This document shows, one piece after another, positions 44,161 through 51,947 of a stretch of 64,000 nucleotides of DNA. Every line of letters begins with the position of its first letter. Within the stretch, counting starts at the first letter, position 1. The stretch is from Kineococcus mangrovi (lineage in GTDB: Bacteria > Actinomycetota > Actinomycetes > Actinomycetales > Kineococcaceae), in assembly GCF_041320705.1 (NCBI RefSeq), contig NZ_JBGGTQ010000001.1:124001-188000 (forward strand), written 5' to 3'. The position numbers and the translations under genes are program-made. The notes beneath the pieces are model-generated. The model saw only the letters and a program-made list of their open reading frames with translations. It had not been told where the DNA came from and searched no databases.

Positions 44161-44371
44161 CCCCGACCTCCCGCCGGGACCGTCCTCGGTCCGGGCCCGA
44201 CCACGGTAGGCGGGTGCGTGCGCACCCCACAAGAGCGCCGTGACGCGACCACCGGACGACGACCCGCCGGACGGGTGGGCGGGCCCTGACGGGGGTGGGC
44301 GGGTGGGAGCATGCCGGGGCACCACCGGTGCTGTCCCGCCCCGACCACCGCCCCGACCACGAGGAGTCCCG

Positions 44372-45556
44372 ATGACCGACGGCCCGCGGCCGTTGAACCT
44401 GCGCGAGATCGCGGAGGGCCTGCGGTCCCCGCACACCTCCGAGGCGCGCCCGCGCCGGGTGGCGCCGCTGCTGCCGGCCTCCCGCGCGGACGAGCTGGCC
44501 CGCTGGCTGGCCGGGACGCAGGACCGGGACGTGGCCGTGCCGCTGGACCGCGTCCGCCTCGTGGTGTTCGCCGGCGACCACGGCGTGGCCGCGCGCGGCA
44601 TCTCGCGCCTGGAGCCGGGCTGGACCGCCTCGGCCGTGCGGGACCTCGTCGCCGGGCGCGGGCCGGTCGCCGCCCTCGCCGCGCAGGTCGGCGCCCGGGT
44701 CGAGGTGCACGCCGTGGGGGTGGACTGGGGCGCGCGGGGGCCCGTCGACGTCCCGGCGTCCGTGCTGGCCGGGGCGCTGCACCCCTCGGGCGACATCGCC
44801 CGCGAGGACGCCCTCACCGAGGCCGAGGTCGAGGACGCGGTGCGCGCGGGGGCCGCGGTGGCCGACGCCGCGGTCGACGCCGGGGTCGACCTGCTGGTGC
44901 TGGGCGACCTGGGCGTGGGCGCCACGGCCGTCGCCTCGACGGTGGTGGCGGTGTGCCTGCGCAAGGGCGCCGTCGACGTCGTGGGGCGCGGCAGCGGGAT
45001 CGACGACGACGCCTGGATGCGCAAGACCGCGGCGGTGCGCGACGCCGTCCGCCGCGGCCGCAAGCTGGCCACGCGCCCGACCGCCGTCCTGCAGGCCGTG
45101 GGCAGCGCCGACGTCGCCGCGGCCGTCGGGTTCCTCCTGCGCTCGGCCGCGCGGCGCACCCCGGTGCTGCTCGACGGCAGCCTCGGCACCGCCGCGGCCC
45201 TGCTGGCCTCGCGCGGGGTCCCGGGGGCGGAGAAGTGGTGGCGGCTCGGGGCGGCCACGGCCGAGCCGGCGCAGGCGCTGGCCTCCGAGCGGCTCAAGCT
45301 GCCTCCCGTGCTCGAGCTCGGGGCCGGCCGCGGCGGCGGGGCCGGCGCGCTGGCCGCGGTGGGGGTGCTGCGGGCGGCGCAGGCGCTGGCGGCGGCCGAC
45401 GAGGCCGAGCTGCCGCCGCTCCCCGAAGCCGAGCCCGAGCCTCAGCCCGAAGCCGAGCCCGAAGCCGAGGCCGAAGCCGAGGCCGAGGCCGAGGCCGAGG
45501 CCGAGCCTCAGCCCGAGGCCGGTCCCGGCGAGGAGAGCACCCGCCCGAACGTGTGA
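44372..45556 (+). CDS. CobT-like phosphoribosyltransferase homologue with altered active site and acidic repeat tail
   Basis: 394 residues. The fold of nicotinate-nucleotide:dimethylbenzimidazole phosphoribosyltransferase is clear from FAGDHGVAARGIS, the glycine-rich LGDLGVGATAVAS and PVLLDGSLGTAAALLA. In canonical CobT the second segment reads GxMGIGNTT and the late loop LGEGxGA carries the catalytic Glu; here they read LGVGATA and GRGGGAGA, so that Glu is Gly. After it comes a 35-residue run of Glu-Ala/Pro repeats (residues about 350-385). GAGGAG lies five bases before ATG 44372. No other cobalamin genes adjoin it. It may have lost or changed the B12 function. Confidence 0.8.
   Translation: MTDGPRPLNLREIAEGLRSPHTSEARPRRVAPLLPASRADELARWLAGTQDRDVAVPLDRVRLVVFAGDHGVAARGISRLEPGWTASAVRDLVAGRGPVAALAAQVGARVEVHAVGVDWGARGPVDVPASVLAGALHPSGDIAREDALTEAEVEDAVRAGAAVADAAVDAGVDLLVLGDLGVGATAVASTVVAVCLRKGAVDVVGRGSGIDDDAWMRKTAAVRDAVRRGRKLATRPTAVLQAVGSADVAAAVGFLLRSAARRTPVLLDGSLGTAAALLASRGVPGAEKWWRLGAATAEPAQALASERLKLPPVLELGAGRGGGAGALAAVGVLRAAQALAAADEAELPPLPEAEPEPQPEAEPEAEAEAEAEAEAEAEPQPEAGPGEESTRPNV
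45421..45528 (+). repeat. GAGGCC/GAAGCC hexamer tandem repeat in the CobT-like gene
   Basis: Short tandem repeats of GAGGCC and GAAGCC, with CCCGAG variants, encode alternating Glu-Ala and Glu-Pro. The array is in frame and probably expands and contracts by slippage in units of two codons. The antisense GNAT gene ends inside it. Confidence 0.8.
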
Positions 45557-46203
45557 CCGGTGGGCGAGCGGTCGAGCTCGGTGAACCCGGTGCGGCGGTA
45601 GAACGCCACCGCACCGGGGTTGGCGGCCGAGACCCCGAGGTGCACCCCGGGCGAGCCCGCGGCGGCCAGCTGCGCGCAGAGCCTCTCGACGAGCAACCGG
45701 CCCACCCCGCGCCCCTGCAGCCGGGGCAGCAGGTCGACGTGCAGGTGGGAGGGGAAGGGCGAGGGCCGCCGCGCCCACAGCGGGTCCGGCCGCACGCCCT
45801 CGTGGACCGTCCGCAGCAGCGGCTCGTCGTAGGTGCCGACGTACCCGTCCTCCGGACGCGGGTAGCGCCGGCGCAGCGGGGGCCACCAGTGCTCCTCGCG
45901 CCAGGCCTCGAAGCGCGCGGTGTCGAGGCAGCCCAGGAGGTAGCCGGCGGGCCCCTGCACGTCGAGGACGAGCGTGCCGAAGGAGACCCCTTCGACGCGG
46001 TAGGCGTGCGCGTACGGGGTCGCGTAGACGTCGCCGAGCAGGCCCGGGAAGGCCGTGCGCCCGCTCGCGTCGCCACCGCTGTCCCCCGTCAGCCGGCACA
46101 GGTCCGACAGCACCGGGGCGTCCGCGGGCACGACGGACCGCCACCGGACCCCCGGCCGGACCTCCTGCTCGGTCCCGGCCCCCTCGTCCCCGACTGCGCG
46201 CAC
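45508..46203 (-). CDS. GNAT family N-acetyltransferase
   Basis: 231 residues. The acetyl-CoA loop is LQGRGVGRLL, with HVDLLP upstream and NPGAVAFYRRTGF downstream, the layout of GNAT enzymes. The N-terminal half (WWPPLRRRYPRPEDGYVGTYDEP) resembles the acetyltransferases sometimes fused to glycosidases. Substrate unknown. It overlaps the end of the convergent CobT-like gene by 49 bases. Confidence 0.85.
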   Translation of the reverse strand: MRAVGDEGAGTEQEVRPGVRWRSVVPADAPVLSDLCRLTGDSGGDASGRTAFPGLLGDVYATPYAHAYRVEGVSFGTLVLDVQGPAGYLLGCLDTARFEAWREEHWWPPLRRRYPRPEDGYVGTYDEPLLRTVHEGVRPDPLWARRPSPFPSHLHVDLLPRLQGRGVGRLLVERLCAQLAAAGSPGVHLGVSAANPGAVAFYRRTGFTELDRSPTGHTFGRVLSSPGPASG

Positions 46204-46213
46204 GCGGTCACGT

Positions 46214-46219
46214 TAAGGT
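46214..46219 (+). promoter_or_regulatory. -10 element (TAAGGT) for pepA, leaderless type
   Basis: TAAGGT, six bases before GTG 46226. Confidence 0.5.
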
Positions 46220-46225
46220 GCCCGG

Positions 46226-47728
46226 GTGCCGCGTCTCCTCCTCAGCAGCAAGTCCGTCAAGAGCGTGTCGGTGGACGCCCTGGTGCTCGGGCTGACCCCC
46301 GCCGCCGCGGGCGCGAAGTCCGCCGCCCCCGTCCTGCTGGGGGGTGAGGACCTGCCCCGCGCGACCCGCTCGGCGCTCGTCGACGCCGCCGGGGCCCTGG
46401 GGGCGACGGGCGCCGCCGGTCAGGTCCACCTCGTGCCGGGTGTCGCGGGGCTGGGCACCAGGCTCGTCGCCCTGGCCGGGACGGGGGCCGACCCCGACGC
46501 CGAGGCGCTGCGCCGCGCCGCCGGTGCGGCCGTGCGCGCCCTCGCCGGGCACCGCCGCGTCGCCCTCGCCCTCCCCGTGCCGGACGCCGTCACCGCCGCG
46601 GCCCTCGCCGAGGGCGCGGCCCTGGGCGCGTACGCCTTCACCCGCTACCGCGCCGCGACGCGCGAGCCGGTCGCCGAGGTGACGCTCCTGGTCGACAAGC
46701 CCCGCGACAAGGCGCTGCGCGCCGCCGTCGACCGCGCCGGCGTGGTCGCCACCGCCGTCCACACGGCCCGGGACCTGATCAACACCGCCCCCGCCGACCT
46801 CGCGCCCGAGGACCTGGCGCAGGCCGCCGCGCAGGCGGCGGCCGGCACGTCGCTCGCCGTGCGCGTCCTGGACGAGGAGGCGCTCGCGGCCGGCGGGTAC
46901 GGCGGCATCCTCGGCGTCGGCCAGGGCTCCGCCCGCCCGCCCCGCCTGGTGGTGCTGGAGCACGCCCCGGCGCGGGCGAAGGGGCACCTCGCCTTCGTCG
47001 GCAAGGGCATCACGTTCGACTCCGGCGGTCTGTCCATCAAGCCGGCGGCCGGCATGGAGACGATGAAGAGCGACATGTCGGGGGCCGCCGCCGTGCTCGC
47101 CGCCGTCCGCGCCGTCGCCGAGCTCGACCTGCCGGTGAAGGTGACCGGCTGGCTGGCCGTGGCCGAGAACATGCCCTCGGGCACGGCGATCCGCCCCTCC
47201 GACGTCCTGACGATGTTCGGTGGGACGACCGTCGAGGTGCTCAACACCGACGCCGAGGGTCGCCTCGTGCTGGGAGACGCCCTGGTCGCGGCCTCGGACG
47301 AGCAGCCCGACGCGATCGTCGACGTCGCCACCCTCACGGGGGCGCAGGTGGTCGCGCTGGGGAACCGGGTCTCGGGCGTCATGGGCAACGACGAGACCTT
47401 CCGGGCGGCCGTGCTCGCGGCGGCCGGACGTGCCGGGGAGTCGTTCTGGCCGATGCCGCTGCCCGAGGAGCTGCGCGCCACGCTCGACTCGCCCGTCGCC
47501 GACCTGGCGAACATCGGTGACCGGGCGGGCGGGATGCTCGTCGCCGCGGTGTTCCTGCGCGAGTTCGTGGGCACGGGCCCGGCCGGTGCACCGATCCCGT
47601 GGGCGCACCTGGACATCGCCGGTCCCGCGTTCGCCACGGGTGAGCCGTGGGGCTACACGCACCGCGGCGGCACCGGCGTGGCGGTGCGCACCCTGGTCGC
47701 GCTCGCGGAGGACCACGCCCGCCGCTGA
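46226..47728 (+). CDS. pepA: Leucyl aminopeptidase, M17 family
   Basis: 500 residues. The M17 catalytic half has VGKGITFDSGGLSIKP, MKSDMSGAAAV and NTDAEGRLVLGDAL, containing the two-metal ligands and catalytic Lys and Arg. It releases N-terminal residues from cytoplasmic peptides. In mycobacteria pepB occupies the same spot before the lipoyl E2 gene. Confidence 0.95.
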   Translation: MPRLLLSSKSVKSVSVDALVLGLTPAAAGAKSAAPVLLGGEDLPRATRSALVDAAGALGATGAAGQVHLVPGVAGLGTRLVALAGTGADPDAEALRRAAGAAVRALAGHRRVALALPVPDAVTAAALAEGAALGAYAFTRYRAATREPVAEVTLLVDKPRDKALRAAVDRAGVVATAVHTARDLINTAPADLAPEDLAQAAAQAAAGTSLAVRVLDEEALAAGGYGGILGVGQGSARPPRLVVLEHAPARAKGHLAFVGKGITFDSGGLSIKPAAGMETMKSDMSGAAAVLAAVRAVAELDLPVKVTGWLAVAENMPSGTAIRPSDVLTMFGGTTVEVLNTDAEGRLVLGDALVAASDEQPDAIVDVATLTGAQVVALGNRVSGVMGNDETFRAAVLAAAGRAGESFWPMPLPEELRATLDSPVADLANIGDRAGGMLVAAVFLREFVGTGPAGAPIPWAHLDIAGPAFATGEPWGYTHRGGTGVAVRTLVALAEDHARR

Positions 47729-47747
47729 CCGGTGGAGGTCGGGGGGT

Positions 47748-47761
47748 CCCCCGAAAGGGGG
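47748..47761 (+). terminator. Possible pepA terminator hairpin
   Basis: CCCCC-GAAA-GGGGG, with a stable GNRA-type tetraloop, 19 bases past the pepA stop. Confidence 0.4.
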
Positions 47762-47929
47762 GCGCCCGTTGACCGGGAACGGACCGGGGGGATCCGGACC
47801 GGTCATCGGCTGGGATCGTTTCCGGACCCCGAAGCATTGTGCCGCAAGGGATTCACCACACCTTCCTGGGGCCGCGACGGCTCGACTGCTCCAGACGGGT
47901 GATCCTCGCCCCTCGGGCTCCGCACACGA

Positions 47930-47951
47930 TGAGCAACTACCTATATGCTCA
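47930..47951 (+). promoter_or_regulatory. AT-rich promoter candidate within a dyad
   Basis: TGAGCA (47930-47935) and TGCTCA (47946-47951) flank a ten-base AT-rich core. TATGCT at 47944-47949 could be a -10 hexamer; no -35 is visible. Confidence 0.35.
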
Positions 47952-48010
47952 CCGTGACGGCCTAGTTCGGGGGCGTCACATCCGACCGGTCCGGTTCTCT
48001 CAACCAGACT

Positions 48011-48033
48011 CCCCGGTGTGCACCGGGGCACAC
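48011..48033 (+). promoter_or_regulatory. Two overlapping dyads in the leader of the RKES gene
   Basis: CCCCGGTG-TG-CACCGGGG (48011-48028) and GTGTGC-ACCGGG-GCACAC (48016-48033) cannot form at once. They end six bases before the GGAGG ribosome site, so they could be alternative leader hairpins or a protein-binding site. Confidence 0.4.
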
Positions 48034-48047
48034 GTCACGGAGGCACC

Positions 48048-48428
48048 ATGTCCACCCGTCAGACCACCTCTGCCGCCCGCGGTCCCCTGCAGCGCCTCGC
48101 CCGCACGGCAGCCCTCTCCCTCACCGCGGCCGCCGTCATCGCCGGCGGCGGGCTCGGTGCGGCGGCCTCGGCCTCCGCCGCCCCCTCCGCCACCCTGACG
48201 GTGACGAAGACGGCCCCCGGCCTCAAGGGCTCCTACGACACCCAGCGCAAGGAGAGCTCCACCGACCGCAAGGAGAGCTCCACGGACCGCAAGGAGTCGA
48301 CGGTCACCCGCAAGGAGAGCTCCACCGACCGCAAGGAGTCGACGGTCACCCGCAAGGAGTCGGTCGTGACCCGCAAGGAGAGCACGGTCGAGCGCAAGGA
48401 GTCCTGGACCGCCGAGAAGGAGCGCTGA
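48048..48428 (+). CDS. Secreted protein of eight RKES heptapeptide repeats
   Basis: 126 residues, not recognised. A clear signal peptide (basic start, hydrophobic 20-40, ASASAAPSA cleavage region near residue 45) is followed by a 20-residue spacer and eight contiguous heptads starting at Arg67, each R-K-E-S-x-x-x, where the last three positions are STD, TVT, VVT, TVE or WTA; the protein ends EKER. Repeats are dense in both Lys/Arg and Glu, with hydroxyl residues between, and have no Cys, Gly or Pro. They may form a charged single helix or an extended wall-associated polymer. GGAGG four bases before ATG 48048 is a strong ribosome site. A 13-bp stem-loop follows. Confidence 0.75.
   Translation: MSTRQTTSAARGPLQRLARTAALSLTAAAVIAGGGLGAAASASAAPSATLTVTKTAPGLKGSYDTQRKESSTDRKESSTDRKESTVTRKESSTDRKESTVTRKESVVTRKESTVERKESWTAEKER
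48246..48413 (+). repeat. Eight 21-bp tandem repeats encoding RKES heptads
   Basis: Eight in-frame 21-base units, each starting CGCAAGGAG. Units alternate between an AGCTCCACCGAC ending and a TCGACGGTCACC ending, so copies were probably duplicated in pairs. There are no spacers, so this is not a CRISPR array. Confidence 0.9.
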
Positions 48429-48470
48429 GCGAGCCGGACCCGAGCTCGGCACCCCCCGACACGAGCTGGT

Positions 48471-48509
48471 CGGACGGCACCTCCCCCCTGCCGGGAGAGG
48501 TGCCGTCCG
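48471..48509 (+). terminator. Terminator of the RKES gene
   Basis: A perfect 13-bp stem (CGGACGGCACCTC and complement) with a 13-base loop, 42 bases past the stop. Confidence 0.7.
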
Positions 48510-48645
48510 CGCGTTCGGGGTCAGGTCCCACGCCCACCCCGTCGCGGCGGACGCACCGCGGCGCCCCCCTCGCGCTCCGCCGGAGGCGTGGTGAGAGGAT
48601 CGCGACGGAGCAGTCACCAGCACAAGCCGACCTCAGGAGCATTTC

Positions 48646-50025
48646 GTGGCAGGTGCCGCCGGGCAGGAGTACGACGTCGTCATCCTCGGGGGAGGCAGTG
48701 GGGGCTACGCCGCCGCCCTGCGCGCCGCCGAGCTCGGGCTCTCCGTGGCCCTCGTGGAGAAGGACCTGCTGGGAGGGACCTGCCTGCACCGCGGCTGCAT
48801 CCCCACCAAGGCCCTCCTGCACGCGGCCGAGGTCGCGGACACCGCTCGCGAGTCCGAGACGTTCGGCGTGCGCGCCAGCCTCGACTCCATCGACATGGCG
48901 GGCGTCAACAAGTACAAGGACGGGATCGTCTCCCGCCTCCACAAGGGCCTCCAGGGTCTGGTGAAGTCCCGCAAGGTCGAGCTCGTGGCCGGCACCGGCG
49001 AGCTGGTCGCCAAGAACACCGTCGAGGTCGACGGCACCCGTTACGTCGGCAAGCACGTCGTCCTGGCCTCCGGGTCGTACTCCCGCAGCCTGCCGGGCCT
49101 CGAGATCGGCGGCCGGGTCATGACGAGCGAGCAGGCGCTCGCCCTCGACACCGTGCCCGAGCGCGTCGTGGTCCTCGGCGGCGGCGTCATCGGCGTGGAG
49201 TTCGCCAGCGTGTGGCGCTCCTTCGGCGCCGAAGTCACCATCGTCGAGGCCCTGCCCCACCTCGTGCCCCTGGAGGACGAGGCCGCGAGCAAGGCGCTCG
49301 AACGGGCCTTCCGCAAGCGCGGCATCGCGTTCTCGCTGGGCGTCCGCTTCGCCGGTGTCGAGCAGTCCGACAGCGGTGTCGTCGTGAAGCTCGAGGACGG
49401 CAAGACCTTCGAGGCCGACCTCATGCTCGTCGCCGTCGGCCGCGGCCCGAACACCGCCGGCCTCGGCTACGAGGAGCAGGGCATCACGATGGACCGCGGG
49501 TTCGTCCTCACCGACGAACGGCTGCGGACCAACGTCGAGGGCGTCTACGCCGTCGGCGACATCGTCCCCGGCCTGCAGCTGGCGCACCGCGGCTTCGCCC
49601 AGGGCATCTTCGTCGCCGAGGACATCGCCGGGCTCGACCCGCAGCCGATCGACGAGCTGGGCATCCCCAAGGTCACCTACTGCGAACCGGAGGTGGCCTC
49701 GGTCGGCCTCACCGAGGCCAAGGCGCGGGAGAAGTACGGCGACGTCGACGTCCTGGAGTACAACCTCGGCGGCAACGGCAAGAGCCAGATCCTCGGCACC
49801 ACGGGTTTCGTGAAGCTGGTGCGCCAGAAGGACGGTCCGGTCGTCGGCGTCCACATGGTGGGGTCGCGCATGAGCGAGCAGGTCGGCGAGGCCCAGCTCA
49901 TCGTCAACTGGGAGGCCTACCCGCAGGACGTGGCGAACCTCGTCCACACGCACCCGACGCAGAACGAGGCCGTCGGCGAGGCCTTCCTCGCGCTGGCCGG
50001 CAAGCCCCTGCACTCGCACGCGTAG
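48646..50025 (+). CDS. lpdA: Dihydrolipoyl dehydrogenase (E3)
   Basis: 459 residues. FAD motif [10 protein letters not shown], redox-active disulfide [16 protein letters not shown] motif [11 protein letters not shown] and C-terminal HTHPTQNEA with the His-Glu pair. It reoxidises dihydrolipoyl groups on E2 of 2-oxo acid dehydrogenases. AGGAG lies five to nine bases before GTG 48646. The E2 gene follows after 68 bases. Confidence 0.97.
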
Positions 50026-50093
50026 CCGACCGACCCCCTGAACCCGCGGCGTCCCCCAGGCGCCGGAGACCGTCCGTGAGGAGAACCGAACAG

Positions 50094-51947
50094 ATGTCGA
50101 ACTCGGTGCAGATGCCCGCTCTCGGTGAGAGCGTGACCGAGGGCACCGTCACGCGGTGGCTGAAGCAGGTCGGCGACACCGTCGCCGTGGACGAACCGCT
50201 GCTGGAGGTGTCCACCGACAAGGTCGACACCGAGATCCCCTCCCCCGTCGCCGGCACGCTGCTGGAGATCCTCGTCCCCGAGGACGAGACCGCCGAGGTG
50301 GGTGCCGACCTCGCCCGCATCGGTGAGGAGTCCGAGCAGGGCGGCGGTTCCGACGACGCGGCCCCGGCCCCCCAGCAGGAGGAGGAGCCGACCCCGCCCT
50401 CGACGCAGGACGCGCAGTCCGCGCCGGAGTCGGCGCAGGAGCCCGACCCCGAGCAGCCGCCCGCCGCGGCGACCGCACCGAGCTCGGGCGGGTCCGGGTC
50501 CGGTCAGGCCGTGCAGATGCCGGCGCTGGGCGAGTCCGTCACCGAGGGCACCGTCACGCGCTGGCTCAAGGCCGTCGGCGACAGCGTCGAGGTCGACGAG
50601 CCGCTGCTGGAGGTGTCCACCGACAAGGTCGACACCGAGATCCCCTCCCCCGTCGCCGGCACGCTGCTGGAGATCCTCGTGGGCGAGGACGAGACCGCCG
50701 ACGTGGGTGCCGACCTGGCCCGCGTCGGTGACGCCTCGGCGCAGAGCGCGCCCGCCCCCCAGGACAGCCCCGCCCAGGACGCTCCCGCGCAGGACACCTC
50801 GGCCCAGGAGGGGACGCTGGCCGACGAGGTCCAGGAGCGCGCCTCCGCCGAGCAGCAGGCCGAGTCCTCCACCCAGCCGTCGTCCGGGTCCTCCGCCGAG
50901 CCCGCCGCAGCGCCGTCCCAGCCCTCGCAGCCCGCGCAGCAGTCCCCGTCGACCCCCGCCCCGCAGGCCTCGGCCGCGGCGGAGTCGACCGGCGGCAGCA
51001 CCTACGTCACGCCGCTCGTGCGCAAGCTCGCCAAGGACCTCGGGGTCGACCTGTCCTCCCTGAAGGGGACCGGTGTCGGTGGCCGCATCCGCAAGCAGGA
51101 CGTGCAGGAGGCCGCCGACCAGGCGGCCGAGGCCGCCAAGGCCTCGCAGCAGCAGGCCCCGGCACCCGCGCAGGAGCCGGCCGCGTCGTCCGGGTCCACC
51201 GCGAAGGCCCCGGCCGCGGAGGTCTCGCCCAAGCGCGGGACCACCGAGAAGATGTCGCGCCTGCGCAAGGTCATCGCCCAGCGCATGAAGGAGTCGCTGC
51301 AGAACTCCGCGCAGCTGACGACCGTCATCGAGGTCGACGTCACGAAGGTGGCGCGGCTGCGGGCACGGGCGAAGGACGGCTTCGCCGCGACCGAGGGCGC
51401 GAAGCTCACGTTCCTGCCGTTCTTCGTCAAGGCCGCGGTCGAGGCGCTCAAGCAGCACCCCTCGCTCAACGCCAGCATCGACGGCGAGAACATCGTCTAC
51501 CACGGCAGCGAGAACATCTCGATGGCCGTGGACACCCCCAAGGGCCTCATCACCCCCGTCATCAAGGACGCGGGCGACCTGAACCTCGGTGGGCTGGCGC
51601 GCAAGATCTCGGACCTGGCCGCCCGCACGCGGGCCAGCAAGATCACCCCGGACGACCTGTCCGGCGGCACGTTCACCATCACCAACACCGGCAGCATCGG
51701 GGCCCTGTTCGACACCCCGATCCTCAACGCCCCGCAGGTCGCCATCCTCGGCACCGGCGCGATCGTCAAGCGTCCCGTCGTCCTCACCGACGCCGACGGC
51801 CAGGACACGATCGCGGTGCGCTCGATGATGTACCTCGCCCTGTCCTACGACCACCAGATCGTCGACGGGGCCGACGCGGCGCGCTTCCTGCAGACCGTCA
51901 AGAAGCGCATCGAGGCCGGCGAGTTCGAGGGTGAGCTCGGGCTCTGA
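50094..51947 (+). CDS. sucB: Dihydrolipoyllysine acyltransferase (E2) with two lipoyl domains
   Basis: 617 residues. Two lipoyl domains (about 1-78 and 138-215), each with the lipoylated lysine in STDKVDTEI; Ala/Pro/Gln linkers; a subunit-binding domain ([20 protein letters not shown] to GRIRKQDV); and the acyltransferase core with catalytic SYDHQIVDG. This is the actinobacterial E2 (DlaT/SucB type) that serves pyruvate and perhaps 2-oxoglutarate dehydrogenase. The lipoyl domains are served by LipB and LipA encoded 5 and 8 kb downstream. ATG 50094 follows GAGGAG by ten bases. Confidence 0.95.
50196..50275 (+). repeat. 80-bp direct repeat in sucB, copy 1
   Basis: This stretch encoding the core of lipoyl domain 1 is identical base for base to 50601-50680, 405 bases on. 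It covers the lipoyl-lysine codon. Confidence 0.9.
50601..50680 (+). repeat. 80-bp direct repeat in sucB, copy 2
   Basis: Identical to 50196-50275, including silent positions, although the flanking parts of the two lipoyl domains differ. Recent duplication or gene conversion would explain it. Confidence 0.9.

Follow-up and report, generated by a model that had tools for sequence, protein, structure and literature searches.

A gene for a small secreted repeat protein lies between pepA and lpdA in Kineococcus mangrovi and, judged by sequence comparison, appears to be restricted to its lineage and under purifying selection. The core that is invariant across the genus is (R/K)-K-E. We argue for purifying selection on a lineage-restricted protein because this motif is unchanged while the spacers between its copies vary, and because a hairpin follows the stop codon in 11 of 11 genomes. 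The gene is found in a 64,000-nucleotide stretch of contig NZ_JBGGTQ010000001.1 (positions 124,001 to 188,000), here called the window, and its features are collected in Table 1; the K. mangrovi genome is denoted G000 and the encoded protein P0001.

Table 1. Features of the repeat-protein gene and its surroundings, in window positions.
Feature	Position	Strand	Basis
Leucyl aminopeptidase (pepA), upstream neighbour	46226..47728	+	NF002073
-10-like TATGCT in a genus-conserved block, candidate promoter	47944..47949	+	Conservation; promoter role putative
GTGACG-N14-CGTCAC inverted repeat, possible 5′-terminal mRNA hairpin	47954..47979	+	Sequence, shuffles
CCCCGGTG-TG-CACCGGGG inverted repeat before ribosome site	48011..48028	+	Weak: p 0.04-0.72 vs shuffles, 11 genomes
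GGAGG ribosome-binding site	48039..48043	+	Ends 4 nt before ATG; GGAGG in 11/11 genomes
CDS, secreted RKES-repeat protein, 126 aa	48048..48428	+	Translation, homologues, NG86 omega 0.25 vs G006
Signal peptide, residues 1-44	48048..48179	+	Sequence; cleavage after ASASA predicted from AxA pattern
Linker, Ser/Thr-rich, residues 45-66 (22 residues)	48180..48245	+	Translation
RKESxxx heptads x8, residues 67-122	48246..48413	+	Translation, tandem-repeat detection, unit spacing
C-terminal EKER	48414..48425	+	End E-x-x-R common to 11/11 members (10 genus + G011)
Hairpin, probable terminator, no T-run, G+C-rich	48472..48508	+	Sequence, folding vs shuffles
Dihydrolipoyl dehydrogenase (lpdA), downstream neighbour	48646..50025	+	TIGR01350
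2-oxoglutarate dehydrogenase E2 (sucB), after lpdA	50094..51947	+	TIGR02927

A signal peptide followed by eight heptads

As read from the translation, P0001 begins with a Sec-type signal peptide comprising a basic n-region, a hydrophobic core and an ASASA/A cleavage-like site, in which Ala 42 and Ala 44 are invariant (alignment A1). The mature part has about 82 aa, and that of its relatives 50-138 aa, with cleavage set by rule at the last AxA, which is clearly too late in three genomes (G005, G002 and G009). The array runs RKESSTD RKESSTD RKESTVT RKESSTD RKESTVT RKESVVT RKESTVE RKESWTA, then EKER and the stop codon, and reaches a score of up to 196 in Tandem Repeats Finder. All eight RKES tetrads are spaced by exactly 7 residues, so that a sequence-only reading of this DNA, which had proposed eight exact RKESxxx heptads behind a signal peptide, holds in that respect. 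Its view that the 21-bp units alternate in pairs fits in part only, the actual order being A A B A B B′ B″ C with five kinds among eight units, and the Ser/Thr that it counted at four of seven positions number two or three per unit.

Neither an LPXTG-like motif nor a C-terminal membrane segment, as expected for sortase anchoring, was seen in P0001, which simply ends in EKER. The gene is single copy in its own genome (five other matches reach only E 0.44 or worse) and has 95% G+C at third codon positions. We infer high expression, as well as the location, ligand and function of the protein.

Another repeat, of Glu/Ala/Pro type (PEAEPEAEAEAE), is seen at window positions 45423-45521, where it ends an ORF (44240-45556, +) that overlaps an acetyltransferase-like ORF on the opposite strand (45508-46203).

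The repeat unit across the genus

Six Kineococcus species carry RKES heptads, 8-16 in each, and K. siccus (G002) has 13 heptads of the KKEAAPL type, with Pro in 10 of the 13. Spacing is a constant 7 in seven genus members including our own and varies in the three others, namely G009 (13 units; 7, 7, then 8), Kineococcus sp. TRM81007 (G010; seven units; 6, then 7) and G004 (six units; 8 and 5 alternating). Since congeners show spacings of 5, 6 and 8, (R/K)-K-E is the defining unit and not the RKES heptad, as had been supposed. Units are alike within a species and differ between species; in G007 and G008 those of one array are nearly identical. In an lpdA tree drawn with a midpoint root, the fork among G011 (a genome of another genus, see below), the pair G004 plus G010 (89/95) and the other eight genus members (99/99) was left open, and within the eight K. 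siccus plus G009 (100/100) are sister to the six RKES species (89/93).

Position 4 of the unit is Ala in 11/13 cases in K. siccus, 3/7 in G010 and 2/6 in G004, which speaks against a repeat that exists for the sake of Ser/Thr modification, a possibility raised by the sequence-only reading. Phosphorylation is not supported either, because PASTA/receptor-type kinases act inside the cell and the protein is exported. Two such kinases had been placed in the window; one kinase-like ORF (641-2575, +) was recovered, by a single motif scan that could miss a second one whose motif differs.

Selection on the motif

Over 1,554 within-array comparisons in 10 arrays, which are not independent of one another, the R/K, K and E codons showed 144 synonymous and no amino-acid changes; the units were located via the (R/K)-K-E motif itself, which could hide lost units, and the spacings of 5-8 leave no gap inside any array. 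Similarly, Ser-4 in the six RKES species gave 140 synonymous and no amino-acid differences (326 comparisons), both AGC and TCN codons being used in G000 and G006, and the spacer positions of these species gave 390 amino-acid and 225 synonymous differences (978 comparisons). Between G000 and G006, NG86 estimates of omega are 0.25 for the whole gene, 0.11 for signal plus linker and 0.48 for the array. Six other pairs gave 0.27-0.78 for the whole gene and 0.10-1.03 for the arrays, some of which are thus near 1, with uncertain alignment of units.

Distribution in and beyond Kineococcus

Homologues were found in nine of 10 other genus genomes (10/11 with our own), all nine between pepA and lpdA as in K. 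mangrovi (in G005 pepA lies at the locus edge and was recognised by eye). This conservation bears out the earlier proposal of a real gene; signal peptides are present in the sister-species homologues and no frameshift case was found. The genus genome without a homologue, G003, is a 700-contig assembly in which searches for lpdA (E limits 1e-150 and 1e-120) also came up empty, and the missing homologue therefore says little.

No sequence homologue was found outside the genus in the samples searched, and the gene appears from these searches to be lineage-restricted. Run against 297 genomes of the order at E up to 1e-4, a sequence profile matched 18, 10 of them from the genus (own included); the eight others (E 4.7e-7 to 7.6e-5) show, on reading, signal peptides, other repeats or low complexity. 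With a limit of E 1e-8, 396 phylum genomes yielded only our own protein and one other, the latter (E 1e-13) with EESTPAA repeats. A DNA pattern for three KE-containing heptads returned 33 stretches from 84,980 named genomes, a collection that may omit near relatives of the window; two are Kineococcus and no small secreted homologue was seen by eye among the remaining 31. A related-locus search confirmed none of 596 stretches, and plasmids and phages gave no match at E up to 0.01 (BLAST, low-complexity filter on). Outside the family, 26 loci were inspected: in 16 of them pepA and lpdA could both be identified, with no such ORF in sight (gaps of <250 bases not being translated), and the other 10 were not judgeable, six lacking pepA in reach and four having an lpdA missed by the motif.

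Other repeats were seen along the way. Upstream of lpdA, L049 (G012) and L047 (G026) encode further proteins that look secreted, their repeats being acidic (STDDAE) or rich in Lys; the two share an NHGxYVSxxAR...SEAAR region, and by eye a reverse-strand acetyltransferase-like frame seems to lie between them and lpdA. In Myxococcales, L114 carries near 2277 (minus strand) KKEAPPA heptads that directly follow what looks like a signal peptide and seem to have converged on the repeat of K. siccus. Tandem REATPGQ/E heptads occur in another family of the order (L078:1501-1764, G205), at a contig end and with no signal peptide in view.

A counterpart in a sister genus

G011 was the only genome of another genus of the family among those drawn. 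In the same pepA-lpdA place it has a signal-peptide ORF of 83 aa (L046:1027-1278) with six EWPR units, EWPRA(M/T), whose mature protein has pI 5.3, net charge -1 and six Trp. Given that place, strand, architecture, E-x-x-R end and the hairpin after the stop are the same, we read this ORF as a probable orthologue. Beyond the signal peptide and the E-x-x-R end no similarity was seen and the genus profile misses G011; the proteins of K. siccus and G009 end in TEWLR. When 347 genomes of the order were searched with the EWPR protein, G011 and nine others came up (E 2.7e-7 to 5.0e-4), with no signal-peptide EWPR protein in those nine.

Expression signals

The ribosome site and the terminator of the sequence-only reading are both recovered, the latter as a probable one: the 110 nt 3′ of the stop fold better than shuffles in all 11 genomes at p of at most 0.015 (p 0.010 in our own). 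Upstream, the core TATGCTCNNNGTGACG of the TATGCT block has one exact occurrence in its own genome and three more places with one mismatch. The GTGACG-CGTCAC hairpin beat shuffles (p<0.05) in five of the six RKES-heptad species, the exception being G007 (p 0.08), and in none of four other congeners; the corresponding stretch of G011 does so as well (p 0.03). CGTCAC occurs twice (within 47954-47979 and at 48033-48038), and either copy could pair with the one 5′ GTGACG; the second adjoins the ribosome site. In the RKES clade the two copies may form a switch. Two further candidates were rejected: the inverted repeat just ahead of the ribosome site folds no better than shuffles in 10 of 11 genomes, and a leader peptide GTG-ACG-xCC-TAG shows no conservation by eye. 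Rfam over positions 45000-51000 gave only two chance-level matches.

Composition and predicted conformation

The 10 mature proteins of the genus have pI 9.7-10.7, a net charge of +4 to +16 and no Cys, and plot as disordered by charge and hydropathy. By GRAVY (-0.65 to -1.78), the mature proteins are strongly hydrophilic. AlphaFold, run on P0001 alone as a single sequence, predicted an array without structure or helix (mean pLDDT 55). For the TRM81007 relative (the L110 protein), also run as a single sequence, it predicted a 54-residue helix at residues 53-106, with block pLDDT mostly >90. This difference may arise from spacing: a hexad places Glu four residues before the following Arg (i,i+4), and a heptad does not. 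Because the predicted conformations of members differ, the fold is not evidently conserved. For the charged helix suggested by the sequence-only reading, the two predictions point in opposite directions.

Family searches and known systems

The kind of protein is known, and the family was not found described in the searches made; the libraries searched (Pfam, NCBIfam, PHROGs, PDB) agree with the sequence-only reading, which knew no family that has this repeat. P0001 has no match above the curated cut-off in Pfam or NCBIfam, its best PHROGs match (no cut-off applied) is at E 5e-4 over the charged stretch, and no PDB chain matches at E up to 1. The Pfam matches of the nine relatives are given as E-values, without cut-off status: with E up to 0.1 the RNase Y N-terminal helix model (RNase_Y_N) picks up five of the 10 members (lowest E 3.2e-9), and bZIP picks up one, at 3e-6. 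By titles and abstract starts, the literature searched held no account of this protein, and the matches listed for the repeat strings included chance occurrences in unrelated public-health papers.

The EESTPAA-repeat protein of another actinobacterium (L145) also has a signal-peptide-like start followed by 7-residue repeats, but there the repeats precede further sequence, whereas here they make up most of the mature protein. Hydrophilins and LEA-like proteins are likewise hydrophilic, repetitive and probably disordered; hydrophilins are, however, defined by more than 6% Gly, and Gly is at 0-2.4% in our 11 mature proteins (cleavage by rule), which by sequence are exported and match no LEA Pfam model.

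HBHA serves as a working analogy, not a relative, and no homology is claimed. In HBHA a coiled-coil N-terminal domain precedes the repeats; no such domain lies before the Kineococcus array, which is preceded only by the signal peptide and a short linker, and no HBHA family match was found. Unlike here, the HBHA repeats sit at the tail end of a larger, multidomain protein, and their unit is without Glu, whereas all Kineococcus units contain it. What is shared is a run of short basic repeats (KKAAPA and KKAAAKK in the HBHA C-terminal tail, cf. KKEAAPL of K. siccus) with possible polyanion binding, the HBHA repeats being reported to bind polyanionic heparin (PMC3293801).

A possible binder of extracellular polyanions

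Multivalent binding through weak contacts is suggested by a motif that is strictly kept and many times repeated on a chain whose spacing is free. We tentatively propose, at somewhat less than an even chance, that the protein is a multivalent basic/polyampholyte chain that binds anionic polymers of the wall or of the thick Kineococcus matrix. The repetitive, hydrophilic mature chain, always basic in the genus, would then show (R/K)-K-E as a short binding motif many times over, so that weak contacts add up. Unit number would set avidity and change by unequal recombination, with the motif kept by selection. Wall polymers, or the polysaccharide of the matrix that holds clusters together, would be the likeliest ligands because of the basic charge, the export, the lack of an anchor and the thick matrix found in Kineococcus clusters, and binding may help to keep wall or matrix together. 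Growth as clusters joined via a thick extracellular matrix is described for K. radiotolerans (PMC2587704; PMC2928746). The strongest objection to a polyanion binder is the net-neutral EWPR form of G011: if it is orthologous, its net charge of -1 and pI of 5.3 mean that cationic binding is not a general principle. Also against it are the absence of a wall anchor or binding domain in the protein, the predicted conformation that differs between members and the array omegas near 1 in some species pairs; the Glu kept in every Kineococcus unit is not needed by a pure polycation.

The coiled-coil, hydrophilin and phosphorylation readings are weaker than the multivalent polyanion binder. An exported, disordered desiccation protectant of LEA/hydrophilin kind would suit a hydrophilic, repeat-built protein, and K. 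radiotolerans is reported to resist desiccation (PMC2587704), but we hold it unlikely in view of the low Gly content and missing LEA match given above and of an invariant motif that exceeds the needs of a generic protectant. The predicted helix of the TRM81007 relative and the RNase_Y_N and bZIP matches point instead to a cell-surface rod, either a charged helix or a coiled coil; with unit lengths of 5-8 in the genus, Pro in most K. siccus units and no structure predicted for the P0001 array, such a rod seems rather unlikely. A multi-copy precursor, from which an outside trypsin-like protease would cut at Arg/Lys and free short signals or antimicrobials (e.g., KESxxxR), draws on the export signal (sequence, alignment), the basic residues in every unit, the Arg that ends 11/11 members, the likeness of units within but not between species and a gene with its own terminator-like hairpin. 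We regard it as quite unlikely, since the five kinds of unit here mean that no one peptide is repeated (though G007 and G008 come near to it), what stays invariant is the presumed cut site and not the product, and the immediate neighbours pepA and lpdA include no receptor or dedicated protease.

As a longer shot, one may speculate that the pepA-lpdA slot houses a rapidly evolving gene for an exported repeat protein whose unit is replaced as a whole from one lineage to another (EWPRA[M/T] vs (R/K)KE(S/A)), in the manner of recognition or signalling systems, and whose chain would be cut outside into short Arg-ended peptides acting as species-specific signals between cluster cells. A near-neutral minisatellite in a dispensable secreted ORF would account for the fast drift of repeat number and spacers, the other repeat in the sister genus and the array omegas near 1; it is very improbable given the zero amino-acid change at R/K-K-E, the low omega between G000 and G006 (lowest in signal plus linker), the conserved promoter block and hairpin after the stop, and the presence of the gene in nearly all genus genomes.

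Significance

The repeat protein described here adds an exported short-repeat family, not found described in the searches made, to a radiation- and desiccation-resistant genus that lives in matrix-bound clusters. Related species form a natural series that differs in motif, unit length and copy number, and what a repeat must keep to work therefore becomes directly testable.
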